48,866 bases of DNA from a virus. The position numbers and the translations under genes are program-made. The notes under the pieces are model-generated. The model saw only the letters and a program-made list of their open reading frames with translations, did no database searches and was not told the origin of the DNA. The stretch is from the IMG/VR virus record IMGVR_UViG_3300046694_000073, positions 1-48,866 of that record. One strand, 5' to 3'. Shown piece by piece: positions 1,936 to 42,307 of the stretch (its first letter is position 1; every line of letters starts with the position of its first letter).

Positions 1936-2056
1936 GATATCACCTTTTCGATCTGTCACACCTATTTGTTAACAATCACTTAGCAAGCCACACTCAATCA
2001 GTGCGCACATAAACGCAGGGAGGCTATCTAACAATTTCAGATAGTTGCGAGGCTTT

Positions 2057-2350
2057 ATGTCTAAATTATTATTGAGCTATGGAAAATGTTGTGATGTTCG
2101 GGCTATTATCTCTGTGCACCTGCAAAATCAGGTGCCGGGATTAGCCTCTCGAAACTCACAAAAGCGCATAACCGCGCCACGCGGTTTTTTTATGCGTGCT
2201 CGGTCACATCTATCAATGGTGGGCTGGGTGGGGGCATCGAAAGATGCGCCGGGTTCTTTTGTGACCGGTAAGGCTAACCCTGCTCAGTTCACCACCAAAG
2301 AATTAGCCTTCTTAGTGGTGAATTCCAAAATCACAAAAGGAATTCGCTAA
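2057..2350 (+). CDS. icd: Icd-like leader reading frame coupled to the antirepressor
   Basis: A 97-residue frame spans the whole C4-type leader and stops in a TAATG overlap with the antirepressor start, as icd does before ant in P1. The segment RARSHLSMVGWVGASKDAP is typical of enteric phage proteins annotated as Icd-like host cell division inhibitors. ATG 2057 follows GCGAGG. Because the frame crosses the RNA elements, some of its sequence is constrained by RNA pairing. Its main role may be translational coupling; a growth-inhibiting peptide is possible from the P1 precedent. Confidence 0.6.
   Translation: MSKLLLSYGKCCDVRAIISVHLQNQVPGLASRNSQKRITAPRGFFMRARSHLSMVGWVGASKDAPGSFVTGKANPAQFTTKELAFLVVNSKITKGIR
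2129..2349 (+). ncRNA. c4: C4-type antisense RNA leader of the first antirepressor (locus A)
   Basis: The leader has three blocks. The upstream block carries TTAGCCT (2141-2147) and TCACAAAAG (2156-2164). Next is a terminator hairpin, then the middle block with the complements CTTTTGTGA (2256-2264) and AAGGCTAA (2270-2277). The downstream block repeats TTAGCCTT (2303-2310) and TCACAAAAGG (2331-2340), the latter containing the ribosome binding site of the antirepressor. A GAAA-capped hairpin lies at 2234-2247. This is the arrangement of the C4 RNA of P1 and P7, which blocks translation of icd and ant. Boundaries are approximate. The same pattern with different sequences occurs at 32679-32902. 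Confidence 0.75.
2170..2191 (+). terminator. Intrinsic terminator inside the C4-type leader (locus A)
   Basis: AACCGCG-CCA-CGCGGTT followed by a T-run. It sits between the upstream and middle blocks of the antisense leader, at the same relative place as the terminator at 32837-32856 in the second locus. It probably ends a short RNA and may be attenuated. Confidence 0.75.
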
Positions 2351-2916
2351 TGAAAACTCAAATCATTGAAGTACCATTCCGCTCAGATGTTATCAATGCC
2401 ATCGAAGTTGATGGTGTTATATATGTGGCTATGCGTCGCATTGTTGAAAACCTCGGTATGAGTTGGGCGACACAGACCGTCAAGCTCAATAGGCAGCGAG
2501 AGAAATTCAGTTGTTTCGATATCGAAACAACTGGTTCTGATGGCAAGACGTACCAAATGCTCTGCATCCCACTTCGCAAACTCAATGGCTGGCTGTTCAG
2601 CATCAATCCCAACAAAGTGCGTGCCGACATTCGTGATGGGCTCATCGCTTATCAGGAAGAATGCTTTACCGCACTTCACGACTACTTCACCAAAGGCGAA
2701 GCTAAGCGCAAAGCTCCTGTGAAGAAAGAGCCTGAGTATCGTTACCGCGTGAAACTGATTATCTGTGATGGCCTGACGGGAACAACGGTTGAGATGCTCG
2801 GTAAAAGTAACGAGATGCGTGACGTTGCATCGGGCATATCAACAGACCTCGGGTTCAAGCCGAATGCTTTCACGCTCGTACCGATGAACATGCGAAAATT
2901 TAAACAGATACATTAA
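2350..2916 (+). CDS. ant: Antirepressor with P22_AR_N-type N-terminal domain (locus A)
   Basis: A 188-residue protein. Residues 1 to about 115 match the P22_AR_N antirepressor N-terminal type (EVDGVIYVAMRRIVENLGM and the block around LRKLNGWLFSINPNKV). Residues 125-188 form a second domain (YRYRVKLIICD, then DVASGISTDLGFKPNAFT) that also ends the protein at 32103-32678. Antirepressors bind phage repressors and cause induction; the target here is unknown. Translation is coupled to the Icd-like frame. The ribosome binding site lies in a hairpin GAATTCC (2320-2326)/GGAATTC (2339-2345) and in block pairing of the C4-type leader. Confidence 0.8.
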   Translation: MKTQIIEVPFRSDVINAIEVDGVIYVAMRRIVENLGMSWATQTVKLNRQREKFSCFDIETTGSDGKTYQMLCIPLRKLNGWLFSINPNKVRADIRDGLIAYQEECFTALHDYFTKGEAKRKAPVKKEPEYRYRVKLIICDGLTGTTVEMLGKSNEMRDVASGISTDLGFKPNAFTLVPMNMRKFKQIH

Positions 2917-27640: not shown

Positions 27641-28809
<1,169 letters not shown>

Positions 28810-28948
28810 TGGTGCACCTGTGTTGTTCTGAGGTGAGCATATCACCTCTGTTCAGGTGGCCAAACTCAGTAAACCACTTCATTTCCGCCACGGAATTGAT
28901 GAGAGCCGTTGTGAAAGTGGCTCTCTTTAATCAGCATCTTTTCGCGGG

Positions 28949-29476
28949 TTAAGCTACCTTCCCTTCCATCAAAGACACCATGTCTGGATCCATCTGGTCG
29001 ATGATTCTCTCCCGGGCACCATTGAGTAATTGCTTTCGACCACCTACTCCCCATTTATTCATGGTCTTCGCGCAGTTGCTTACCTCTTTAGTCTCGTTCG
29101 CAATCAGCAAATCAAGGCGGTTGAGACGGTTCATATTGCTAACACCATTAAGCACTGCCTCTCGAAAGGTGTTGTATACCCTGATTTCAAACTCCGGCCT
29201 CAGCCAAGCTGCATAGCGGATCACCACCAACTCAAGCGCCCATGTACCTTGTTGCAGGCCACCCTTGATGACATTGACCGATGCACTTTTTGTTGCATCG
29301 CTCAATGCTTGTACAAATCTCTTCACTTGATTGCTCTTGAGAAAGACGCCCGGTCGCTGTGACTCCGTCGCCTCCCCATTTGTTACTGCAGCAGCATGGA
29401 GATCGTTCAGGTTGTATCGGCCTTCGTTATCAACGCGAACGGGAACGCCGTTAACTACTACGGTTGGATATTGCAT
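28949..29476 (-). CDS. KilA-N domain protein, possible antirepressor
   Basis: A 175-residue protein. The KilA-N domain spans about 5-110: VDNEGRYNLNDLHAAAV, FLKSNQVKRFVQAL, then GGLQQGTWALELVVIRYAAW. A short helical tail follows. KilA-N proteins of phages bind DNA or act as antirepressors. Its start directly follows a leader frame (29477-29764) whose stop abuts the ATG, like icd-ant. AAGGAA lies 7 bases upstream. A hairpin (GAGAGCC/GGCTCTC) lies behind the stop, next to the IS. Confidence 0.8.
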   Translation of the reverse strand: MQYPTVVVNGVPVRVDNEGRYNLNDLHAAAVTNGEATESQRPGVFLKSNQVKRFVQALSDATKSASVNVIKGGLQQGTWALELVVIRYAAWLRPEFEIRVYNTFREAVLNGVSNMNRLNRLDLLIANETKEVSNCAKTMNKWGVGGRKQLLNGARERIIDQMDPDMVSLMEGKVA

Positions 29477-32102: not shown

Positions 32103-32678
32103 TCAGTAAATCCGCTTCATTTTTTCTTTACAGGCAGGGACATGAGTAAAGGCGTTAGGTTTGTAACCCAAATCGGTGGATATTCCGCTGGCTATATCTC
32201 TAAATGTTTCAGCTTTCCCAAGCATTTCAACACAGCCGCCAAAGAGTTCGTCGTAAATGATAACTCGAACACGATAGCGATAATCACGGCCACTCGGTTT
32301 TACCGTATCTACCTGCTGATTTTCTTTCTGGTTGAAGTAGTGATCTTCAAGTTTCTCGAACACTTCCCATGCCTGGTCGGTCTCCAGCATCTTAGCGTGA
32401 CGGGCAGCGCCGCGTTCTGTCCAGAGGATGAGAAATCTGGTCTTTGGTGATATTGGATTTTGTGAGTAGTTTAAAGCTACTCGCAAATCTTTGAGTTCGT
32501 CACCAGTAACCTTGAAGTAATGCTTGCCCTCAACGAAACGAATTTTATTTTCATGATGGTTTTGCCGGATACGAACCGGGTCAGTGCCGTACAAAATTGA
32601 AAGTGATTCTGTGGTTATAACCGGGATCTGGTTGTGGGTGATCGGCGAAAGAGTTTCTACTGTGATTTTAGTTGTCAT
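32103..32678 (-). CDS. Antirepressor with ORF6N-type N-terminal domain (locus B)
   Basis: A 191-residue protein. Residues 12-110 are an ORF6N-type domain: HNQIPVITTESLSILYGTDP, then FVEGKHYFKVTGDEL and RFLILWTERGAARHAKML. Residues 130-191 are homologous to the C-terminal domain of the protein at 2350-2916: YRYRVRVIIYDELFGG against YRYRVKLIICDGLTGT, and DIASGISTDLGYKPNAFT against DVASGISTDLGFKPNAFT. It is the first gene of the late operon. The ribosome binding site (GGAG) is held in CTCCTG/CAGGAG and in the C4-type leader pairing. Confidence 0.78.
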   Translation of the reverse strand: MTTKITVETLSPITHNQIPVITTESLSILYGTDPVRIRQNHHENKIRFVEGKHYFKVTGDELKDLRVALNYSQNPISPKTRFLILWTERGAARHAKMLETDQAWEVFEKLEDHYFNQKENQQVDTVKPSGRDYRYRVRVIIYDELFGGCVEMLGKAETFRDIASGISTDLGYKPNAFTHVPACKEKMKRIY

Positions 32679-32902
32679 GATGTAGCTCCTGTTAGCTTTA
32701 TCAGGAGTCGCCGCGCAAGTGAGATTTTGGCGGTGACCCGAATGAGGATCTCACAACCGGCCTAACAGGTACCGGCCCAGCCGAAGCTGGCCTCACCCGA
32801 GCCACCATAATTTGGATGTGCTGGGGTTGCGACAATAAAAAAGACGCTGGCGCGTCCTGTGTCGCCTGTTAGATATCCGGGGTGAGATTCCCGACACCTC
32901 AT
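32679..32902 (-). ncRNA. C4-type antisense RNA leader of the second antirepressor (locus B)
   Basis: Minus strand blocks: upstream ATCTCAC (32882-32888) and CTAACAGG (32865-32872); a terminator; then in the middle CCTGTTAG (32762-32769) and GTGAGAT (32748-32754); then downstream ATCTCAC (32719-32725) and CTAACAGGAG (32686-32695), which holds the ribosome binding site. The hairpin CCAGC-TTCG-GCTGG (32777-32790) corresponds to GCATC-GAAA-GATGC of locus A, with compensating base changes. A short Icd-like frame (32762-32902) stops inside. The order terminator, ATGGTGG, hairpin, CCGG, gene is the same as locus A. Confidence 0.75.
32837..32856 (-). terminator. Intrinsic terminator ending the pR' leader RNA
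   Basis: Minus strand GACGC-GCCA-GCGTC followed by six T residues. It lies about 75 bases after the predicted pR' start, so it would release a short leader RNA unless Q modifies the polymerase, like tR' of lambda. Confidence 0.8.
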
Positions 32903-32918
32903 GAGGAGGCGCAAAGGG

Positions 32919-32948
32919 AATATATCCCCGGATATCTGCTTGTGTCAA
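32919..32948 (-). promoter_or_regulatory. Late promoter pR'
   Basis: TTGACA (plus 32943-32948) and TATATT (plus 32919-32924) with an 18-base spacer, overlapping the end of Q. The -35 is a perfect consensus. Position right after Q and before a leader terminator matches lambda pR'. Confidence 0.8.
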
Positions 32949-33757
32949 CGAGTCACACCATCCAGCTTAATATCGGCATCAGACTCTTCTTTGTGGCATT
33001 GTGTTATCAGCAGCTCGTAGAACGGTTTAAAGTTGCGCCGCCATGTTGGTTCAGTGATTTCCATTACGTCGCAGCAGATGGCCTTGCGTACTGTTTCCGC
33101 TGGCAACCTTGCATACCCTCGGCCAGAGCACTTTGGGCACTCCTTGTTAACCGGGATGCCCTGCAGTTCCGTTTGCACCTTGTCCAGCACGAAACCTTTT
33201 CCGTGACAGCGACACGCGTTGCTGACGACCTTCTTCCCGCCGCATGGTTTGCAGAGAACGCGTACCACCTCCCGCTTCGGTTTTAGGTCGTTCCCCGGCA
33301 TTGGGCTGGCAAATCGCATGAGTTGCACATCTGCGGATCTGGTCATCTGTCCCATAGCGGCTTTCATGGTGAATGTTTCAGCCTCTATGAATCCTTCCCC
33401 AGCGCAGCATTCGCATTGACGAACACTAGCAGCACTGCGTGAATAATCCTGATAAGCGAAAGTTGCGAGTATTTGCAGAACCCTTTGCTTAATATCATCA
33501 TCAAGTTCTGAGATTGCCCGACATTGCCCTGCAAGGCGCTGTGCGATTTCATAAAGCCCCTCTACTGCTTTATCTGGTGCGCTGATACCAATCTTCGCCA
33601 GATATAAATCCAGACCAATGCCGCTTTTAAGTCCTGCAAGACCTAATGCGGCCATTGCTTCACTAATGCTCAATGCGTCAGAAGCTGTTGCCCTGGGTGC
33701 GTCAGTGATATGTGGTGATTTAGGTGCGAAGTATTTTCCGATAGCTTCAAGTCTCAT
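32945..33757 (-). CDS. Q: Late antitermination protein Q (phage 82 type)
   Basis: A 270-residue protein of the Antiterm family. It has zinc-finger-like CxxC clusters: [26 protein letters not shown] and CPKCSGRGY, then a C-terminal helical region ([20 protein letters not shown]). Q binds near pR', joins the paused polymerase and lets it pass terminators in the late operon. It overlaps the phosphatase gene by 4 bases. Confidence 0.9.
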
Positions 33758-40525: not shown

Positions 40526-40543
40526 GCAAATAAAATGCGGGCT

Positions 40544-41269
40544 ATGGCTAAGAAAAACGTTATTACTGAAGAAGACATCCAAGTGTCGAACCGCTTAAGG
40601 CAGATATGGGATGCGAAAAAAGAACAGTTGGGGTTGAACCAAGAGAAGGCAGCTGATTTCTTTGGGTTCAGTACCCAGGCTGCTATAAGTCAATTCTTGA
40701 ATGGGAAAGCAGCAGTAAACACTGAAAATATCTTGAAATTTTCATCACTTCTGGAGGTTCAACCAGAAGAAATAAAACCTAGCATCGCGCCGCTGCTCTC
40801 ACATATAAGAGGCAATCCTGCATCTCAAGTGTTCATGAAAAGGCCAGCAGAATACCAATACCCACTCTTCACAACGGTACAGGCTGGTCAGTTTGCTGAG
40901 GTCGGCACGTTCACCGAGCGTGATGCTCAAACGTGGGTCGCTACAACTAAGAAAGCCAGCAAAGACGCATTCTGGCTAGAAGTAAACGGCCACTCAATGA
41001 CGGCACCGCAGGGCGTCAGGCCGAGTTTTCCTGAGGGTATGCTGATACTGATTGATCCTGCCGAAGACGTGGGGCCGGGAGATTTCTGTGTTGCCAGTGT
41101 TTTTGGTGATACTGAGGTGACGTTCAAGAAGTTGACGTGGGATGACGGCAAGGCATGGCTGGAGCCGCTTAACCCTAATCCGCGCTACCAGAGCATTCCA
41201 TGCAACGAAACGTGCAGGGTTGTTGGTAAGGTCGTTAAAGCGCAGTGGCCTGAGGATATCTTCGAGTAG
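40544..41269 (+). CDS. cI: CI repressor with LexA-like autoprotease domain
   Basis: A 241-residue repressor. The HTH region (about 30-60) is [20 protein letters not shown]. The C-terminal domain is very like lambda CI: cleavage at Ala114-Gly115 (TVQAGQF), Ser151 in VNGHSM, Lys195 in VTFKKL. RecA-stimulated cleavage after DNA damage should induce the prophage. I choose ATG 40544 by alignment with lambda CI; ATG 40535 is in frame 3 codons earlier. No strong ribosome site is seen for either. cI is followed by the BstA-like gene on the same strand. Confidence 0.92.
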
Positions 41270-41401: not shown

Positions 41402-42307
41402 ATGGCAAATTTCCCCAATAGCGGATCGCAGGGTAATTTAGCGCTTTTCCCAACGGTTGAAGTTGTTGCTGACGGCATACCAATGGGTGTACTGAGCGAT
41501 GGAACACCATATTTAACCCTTTACGGCCTAGCTAAACTTTGCGGAATTGATGAAGCCCCGCTTCGAATGTTTACATCCAACTGGGATGCAGAAAAGATTA
41601 AGCCCAGAGGGCAAAAAATAGCCTCTTATTTAGCTGACCGGGGATACGTTAATGTTGATCGCCTTTATACTCGAGTAGTGAACAGCTCCAACGTGGAGAC
41701 TCATGCCTACCCTGACTACGTCTGCATGGCTATAATGCGATACTACGCAATGGACGCTGCGAATTTTGATAGATCCATTGCAGTTGGTAACTTCGTTCGC
41801 TTAGCGGAGTACACGCTGAAGCGCATGATTTATGAAAAAGCCAATTACAACCCCAATGCTTCAATCGATCTATCTTTCGAAAATTACCGAGCAAGAATAA
41901 AACTGAATGACCAAATACCTACATCCCACTTCGCCGTATTTAGAGAGATAGCAGACATCGCAATGAATCTAATAGGCGGTGGATTCCCTATGGATGATAC
42001 GACTTCATTAGACGGGAGTGTGGGTAGCCACTGGGGTCGGTACTGGGCAAAAAACCGCCTTTCAGAAAAATTCGGCGAGAGAATTCAGCACCCTCACCTT
42101 TACCCTGATAACTATAGACAAGCGGCGGCCAACAAATTTATAACGGCTTGGATTTACCCCATCGAAGCCCTTGGTACATTCAGAAAATGGCTTCATGAAA
42201 ATTATGCAATGGATAAATTGCCCAAGTATCTCGACAACAAAAATATCGGCAACGCAGTAGCCATGCTGGAGGCGGTGAAGAAACCTGAGCTCCCTAATAG
42301 GCATTAA
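41402..42307 (+). CDS. BstA-like abortive-infection protein
   Basis: A 301-residue protein. The N-terminal part (about 18-110) is KilA-N/Bro-like: VVADGIPMGVLSDGTPYLTL then YGLAKLCGIDEAPLRMFTSN and RYYAMDAANFD. The C-terminal part (170-285) has PTSHFAVFREIADIAMNLIG, HWGRYWAKNRLSEKFG and YPIEALGTFRKWLHENYAMD. In Salmonella phage BTP1, bstA is a KilA-N-containing prophage gene downstream of the repressor that halts superinfecting phages. Here too it follows cI on the same strand and shares its terminator. I recall the family from its place, length and N-terminal domain, not from an alignment. AAGGAT precedes the ATG. Confidence 0.55.
   Translation: MANFPNSGSQGNLALFPTVEVVADGIPMGVLSDGTPYLTLYGLAKLCGIDEAPLRMFTSNWDAEKIKPRGQKIASYLADRGYVNVDRLYTRVVNSSNVETHAYPDYVCMAIMRYYAMDAANFDRSIAVGNFVRLAEYTLKRMIYEKANYNPNASIDLSFENYRARIKLNDQIPTSHFAVFREIADIAMNLIGGGFPMDDTTSLDGSVGSHWGRYWAKNRLSEKFGERIQHPHLYPDNYRQAAANKFITAWIYPIEALGTFRKWLHENYAMDKLPKYLDNKNIGNAVAMLEAVKKPELPNRH

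Follow-up and report, generated by a model that had tools for sequence, protein, structure and literature searches.

The C4 RNA family, the logic of target copies upstream and downstream of the antisense RNA, and the role of the address in specificity are already known from P1/P7, RF03163 and Acinetobacter baumannii. A 4-nt deviation separates the addresses of P1 and P7 and sets their specificity, as cited in PMC5320573. A C4 position in a late leader is known from Gifsy-1. The study of that locus (PMC4825925) describes it as a pairing between IsrK and orf45 and does not name C4; 'phage P1', 'Citron' and 'C4 RNA' are absent from its text. Here we analyzed a viral DNA stretch of 48,866 nucleotides, referred to as the window. 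The record holds only two C4 RNAs, at locus A on the plus strand and locus B on the minus strand. We conclude that locus B very probably belongs to the late leader of a lambda-like temperate phage and there forms a C4 antisense-RNA module.

On the minus strand, locus B runs from a Q gene through a sigma-70-type promoter, a short leader, an intrinsic terminator and the C4 RNA to an ORF6N antirepressor. The gene of the Q antitermination protein (32945–33757; Antiterm, PF03589; Pfam 146.5 bits, E 2.6e-43) is located upstream of the leader. The pR'-like late promoter (32919–32948) has TTGACA at 32948–32943 and TATATT at 32924–32919, separated by an 18-nt spacer. It matches the consensus at 11 of 12 positions, and there is no other promoter-like site in the region. 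The terminated leader RNA (32837–32912) is isrK/c4-a1b1-like. It scores 46.6 bits (E 4.4e-9) with the isrK model RF01394, slightly under the curated cut-off of 50, and does not match c4-a1b1 (RF03163). Copies of both C4 targets are present in it ahead of the terminator. The linker target ATCTCAC (32882–32888) is located in a hairpin loop closed by CGGG...CCCG, and the loop target CTAACAGG spans 32865–32872. The tR'-like terminator (32841–32858) is composed of GACGC-GCCA-GCGTC followed by a T-run. Of the marks of late (pR') lambdoid leaders, locus B has the promoter behind Q and the early terminator. The placement in a late leader proposed from the letters alone is supported by these features and by the Gifsy-1 precedent.

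The C4 RNA of locus B (C4-B, minus strand, 32726–32812) matches RF01695 with 70 bits (cut-off 45; E 1.1e-11 over the window) and our own model R1 with 75.5 bits. The sequence-only reading had called the element a C4-type leader, and the RF01695 match is well above the cut-off. It had also described correctly that hairpin GCATC-GAAA-GATGC of locus A is replaced by CCAGC-TTCG-GCTGG in P2 of C4-B (32777–32790); all five pairs of this helix show two-sided changes. The loop address TACCTGTTAGG (32761–32771), which contains CCTGTTAG, is presented by the CCGG/CCGG hairpin P3. The linker address TTGTGAGAT (32748–32756) contains GTGAGAT. Both are complementary to the targets. In the antirepressor leader, the linker target ATCTCAC is found again at 32719–32725. 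The loop target recurs within CTAACAGGAG (32686–32695), where CTAACAGG overlaps the Shine-Dalgarno AGGAG of the antirepressor. The complementarity between C4-B and this ribosome site extends over 8 nt in the loop and 7 nt in the linker. A putative short reading frame of 35 codons (32701–32808), the counterpart of Gifsy-1 orf45 as judged from the position of Gifsy-1 AUG107, overlaps C4-B and ends 22 nt before the antirepressor start. The antirepressor (32103–32678; PF10543, E 2.9e-19; PHROG 2379 anti-repressor, E 5.7e-63) is located 47 nt downstream of C4-B. Its family and position fit an antirepressor operon, which C4-B would control.

All segments quoted in the sequence-only reading are present on the minus strand at the leader, the C4 and the antirepressor ribosome site, at confirmed coordinates. 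They are inside the interval that it gave, 32679–32902; the promoter (32948–32919) and the first leader bases, from about 32912, are just outside. The pattern ATCTCAC-N(5-30)-CTAACAGG occurs exactly three times on both strands of the 48,866 bases, in the leader, in the C4 (antisense) and at the ribosome site. Dinucleotide-preserving shuffles gave a chance expectation of 0.00. Permutation of the locus B flanks gave four match probabilities with a product of about 2e-7. A megablast search with locus B against phages and E. coli returned nothing beyond the antirepressor domain and some short pieces.

The anatomy of locus A is the same as that of locus B, but the segments are unrelated, and each address pair is confined to its own locus. 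The isrK-type leader of locus A (plus strand, 2116–2191) scores 74.9 bits with RF01394, which passes the curated score, and carries the targets TTAGCCT (2141–2147) and TCACAAAAG (2156–2164). Downstream on the same strand are the C4 RNA (2212–2299; RF01695, 79.3 bits), a second, sequence-matched target pair (TTAGCCT, TCACAAAAG) at the antirepressor ribosome site (2303–2339) and an antirepressor in which a domain search identified a P22_AR_N domain (2350–2916). This address pair is also found in exactly three copies in the window, with none expected by chance. A weak match to Phage_ASH (Ash family) at 2045–2350 (plus strand) spans both the leader and the C4 at this locus. Translated C4 leaders may account for part of the Ash/Icd-like annotations.

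Cross-talk between the two loci was gauged by duplex energies at the level of single segments (loop and linker). On their own ribosome sites, C4-A reaches −12.4 (loop) and −9.7 kcal/mol (linker), and C4-B −12.4 and −8.9 kcal/mol. On the ribosome site of the other locus the values are weaker, −7.7 and −4.6 for C4-A on B and −5.2 and −6.2 kcal/mol for C4-B on A. These values support, at the sequence level, the earlier proposal that the two switches have different addresses and work without cross-talk, with one exception: the linker of B pairs over 7 nt with leader A (CTCACAA, −9.1 kcal/mol), though not with the ribosome site of A. This pairing is possibly a weak contact with the leader rather than with the antirepressor start. 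The energy of the whole CCGG-to-CCC segment, which was −31.3 for C4-B with leader A, was dropped as a gauge, since any GC-rich site will pair with scaffold bases like CCGG.

We aligned the scaffolds of 28 C4s from the window, its relatives and bacterial genomes. In the three-stem scaffold, 98.7% of cells are paired, and 122 two-sided changes are found compared to 36.8 in shuffles. Two-sided changes occur in 13 of the 25 pairs, with a covariation score of 0.577 (0.214 shuffled), and slid versions of the alignment all score much lower. A covariance model built from this alignment identified 185 C4s among the loci retrieved, corresponding to 160 unique cores, 157 of them with usable flanks. For these 157, the P3 loop and the following linker were compared with the leader and the ribosome-site region of every locus. 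Each core sequence entered only once, which places identical multi-copy C4s within one genome outside this comparison. In the four comparisons, matches to the own locus average 7.3, 7.1, 6.8 and 6.2 nt, and those to other loci 4.8, 4.9, 4.7 and 4.5 nt. None of 2000 permutations gave as high a match to the own leader and own ribosome site. Covariation, whose absence had been named beforehand as a refutation, is therefore present in both the scaffold and the address segments.

The addresses are diverse, with 149 distinct loop-linker pairs among the 157 RNAs. Among RNAs from genomes that carry three or more C4s, 74 of 75 have their strictly best combined match at their own ribosome site, and 111 of 127 have it at their own leader. 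At 96 of the 157 loci, both the loop and the linker match a ribosome-site target over 6 nt or more. Terminator-like sites within 110 nt before the C4 are present at 93 of the 157 (10 in shuffles). The reading frame overlapping the C4 is open in 60 of 74 loci, compared to 31 and 34 for the other frames, a count biased by the conserved scaffold. Selection for divergence among co-resident C4s was considered but not supported: at the 6+6 threshold, cross-matches number 27/1324 within genomes and 466/23168 between genomes. With no excess divergence within genomes, orthogonality appears to arise from general diversity and not from detectable selection between co-resident copies.

The order Q, leader, C4 and ORF6N gene recurs in Gifsy-1 and elsewhere behind other Q families. 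The families behind which C4s are found include PF06530 and DUF1133, although the Q match of DUF1133 is weak and under the cut-off. A single C4 is the rule in C4-bearing virus records of at least 33 kb. The idea that two C4s in one phage are unique was rejected: 5 of the 38 records have at least two matches, and the relatives G001, G004 and G005 have 2, 3 and 2. Up to 24 C4s occur in one genome. Forty-five C4s, mostly in Xenorhabdus and Acinetobacter calcoaceticus, are orphans, with matching leader targets and no matching target within 130 nt downstream (for example L194, L196, L210, L216 and L157–L172); 12 of them are in the A. calcoaceticus genome. Arsenophonus triatominarum (G027) has 17 C4s in one genome, five of them with identical scores. 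These five probably represent a multi-copy prophage, which suggests that identical addresses probably do coexist in one cell.

Our analysis of Gifsy-1 indicated that isrK-orf45-anrP, a locus already published, is of the C4 type. A C4 core of 69 bits (L003, 2617–2700) is located between the isrK/c4-a1b1 leader, itself behind Q, and the ORF6N gene. With +1 set at the A of ACGCCAG, all 12 checked positions of published IsrK/orf45 mutations carry the expected base. The leader target TTGGCG contains G28 and G31, the C4 linker TTACGCCAA (156–164) contains C159 and C162, and G114 and C175 are C4 stem positions. The start codon of orf45 (AUG107) is in the 5' end of the C4. When the linker (C159/C162) is mutated, translation of AnrP rises from 4 units to 484 and 926, about 100- to 200-fold (PMC4825925). 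IsrK supplied in trans raises AnrP from 3 to 417, about 140-fold, and IsrK-G28A or -G31A gives no activation (PMC4825925). An RNA of about 80 nt, STnc1160, is processed from the read-through transcript (PMC4825925); its size and place are those of a mature C4. These published mutants thus amount to a mutational test of the orthologous locus, and their behavior is consistent with a C4 switch whose leader is an antagonist. In cis, the leader mutations G28A and G31A raise AnrP and do not lower it (PMC4825925), so pairing in cis contributes to silence and a pure decoy model is insufficient. Compensated double mutants restore repression only partly, and constitutive orf45 does not relieve IsrK toxicity (PMC4825925). 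The published mutations fall in the C4 linker, the C4 stem and the leader target and thereby join the literatures on P1 C4 and on Salmonella IsrK. This suggests that IsrK is part of a C4 switch.

By analogy with P1/P7 and Gifsy-1, most transcripts in a lysogen would end at the terminator of locus B. Leaky read-through would yield a precursor, from which C4-B would be cut; as in P1/P7, and in line with the ~80-nt STnc1160, RNase P may process it to a trans-acting RNA of about 77 nt. C4-B would pair with the ribosome site and keep the antirepressor off. The target copy in the leader may pair with C4-B, whether in cis or as a small RNA on its own, and counteract or tune it. Q may increase read-through, as analogy suggests. 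With different addresses, each C4 would silence only its own antirepressor.

A cis-acting, riboswitch-like leader has been proposed for Gifsy-1. Pairing between leader and C4 in cis would close the overlapping short frame, to which antirepressor translation would be coupled, with no free C4 on the ribosome site. In the minimum-energy fold of the whole B leader, the leader target is indeed paired with the C4 loop and linker, and B has the putative 35-codon frame close to the antirepressor start. Native-gel conformers, compensatory mutants and the dependence of AnrP on orf45 favor such a mechanism in Gifsy-1 (PMC4825925). However, it does not explain why the ribosome-site target co-varies with the C4 addresses, as found in the permutation test and at the 96 loci described above. 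Nor does it account for the stronger derepression by C4-linker than by leader mutations in Gifsy-1 (PMC4825925), or for the accumulation of a C4-sized RNA there. We consider it rather unlikely at locus B, although cis and trans modes can coexist.

That C4-B serves mainly in superinfection immunity, silencing an antirepressor of the same address in an incoming phage, is a serious possibility to which we give somewhat less than even weight. P1/P7 c4 provides the precedent, as cited in PMC5320573 and PMC12197685, and the diversity of addresses is in keeping with it. Immunity is, however, a consequence of trans action rather than an alternative mechanism, and the equal cross-match rates within and between genomes show no sign of selection for divergence. 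It is very improbable that the locus is a non-functional remnant or a set of chance repeats in a GC-rich leader, a reading left to it as a single sequence. All stems are intact, the four address matches are all perfect with none expected by chance, and the antirepressor frame and promoter are intact.

The two antirepressors share their C-terminal 60 residues with 63% identity (2734–2913, plus strand; 32106–32285, minus strand), whereas their N-terminal domains are unrelated, P22_AR_N in A and ORF6N in B. Outside the window, the shared tail was found only in a related 48-kb virus record (G005; L016/L264). A tblastn search of this domain against phages found nothing, and a PDB search with the antirepressor gave chance-level matches only. 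The simplest inference from the shared tail is that both antirepressors, expressed from two operons with different timing, would have a common partner, probably the CI repressor of S24 type (40535–41269). Placing two regulators of one target under different RNA addresses would give the lack of cross-talk a purpose. Directly downstream of the repressor gene is a BstA-like abortive infection gene (41402–42307, plus strand; PHROG 6287, E 1e-127). A KilA-N gene (28949–29476) is a possible third antirepressor and may be interrupted. Directly behind it is an insertion sequence (27641–29476, minus strand) with rve and HTH_Tnp_1 transposase frames.

On the wider meaning we are evenly balanced. C4s may constitute a broad and modular code of addresses by which phage antirepressors are controlled. 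On a conserved scaffold, the address of loop plus linker would be exchangeable and change together with its two target copies. Several antirepressors could thus be independent in one phage or cell, with the terminated leader (IsrK) as a built-in C4 antagonist. Here, two switches, one near the end of the rightward-transcribed arm before excisionase and integrase and one in the late leader, would serve two antirepressors that have in common an end which probably binds the repressor. The specificity question from P1/P7 is now directly testable, since two natural C4 pairs in one genome provide a two-by-two orthogonality test. Relief of the antirepressor from C4 would offer a simple basis for the growth-arrest phenotype of IsrK. 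Genomes with many C4s provide a gauge of how many independent addresses a cell may hold.

Compared to known systems, locus B is similar to P1/P7 C4 (RF01695; upstream target RF03163, c4-a1b1) in its scaffold, in the order of upstream target, antisense RNA and ribosome-site target, and in the kind of gene controlled. In P1, the C4 is in immI ahead of icd/ant; at locus B it is behind the late promoter and directly before the ORF6N antirepressor. Unlike P1/P7, the phage here has a second C4 with another address. Gifsy-1 shares with locus B the location behind a Q gene, the promoter spacing, a terminated leader, the C4 core and an ORF6N antirepressor (AnrP). Its Q protein belongs to PF06323, which is unrelated to PF03589 in B, its addresses differ, and it holds one C4 rather than two. 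The CI RNA of satellite phage P4 (seqA, seqC) is likewise antisense to, and processed from, the transcript under its control, and it has a complementary site on either side, upstream and downstream (PMC4825925), but it acts on transcription termination of replication genes and belongs to another RNA family. The Group 1 C4-like sRNAs of A. baumannii similarly have many addresses per genome and are processed from longer transcripts, but are mostly without a nearby antirepressor target (PMC5320573). Our analysis newly describes two C4 switches paired with two antirepressors whose C-terminal domain is shared, recognizes the IsrK locus as a C4 locus and tests the addresses on a large scale.
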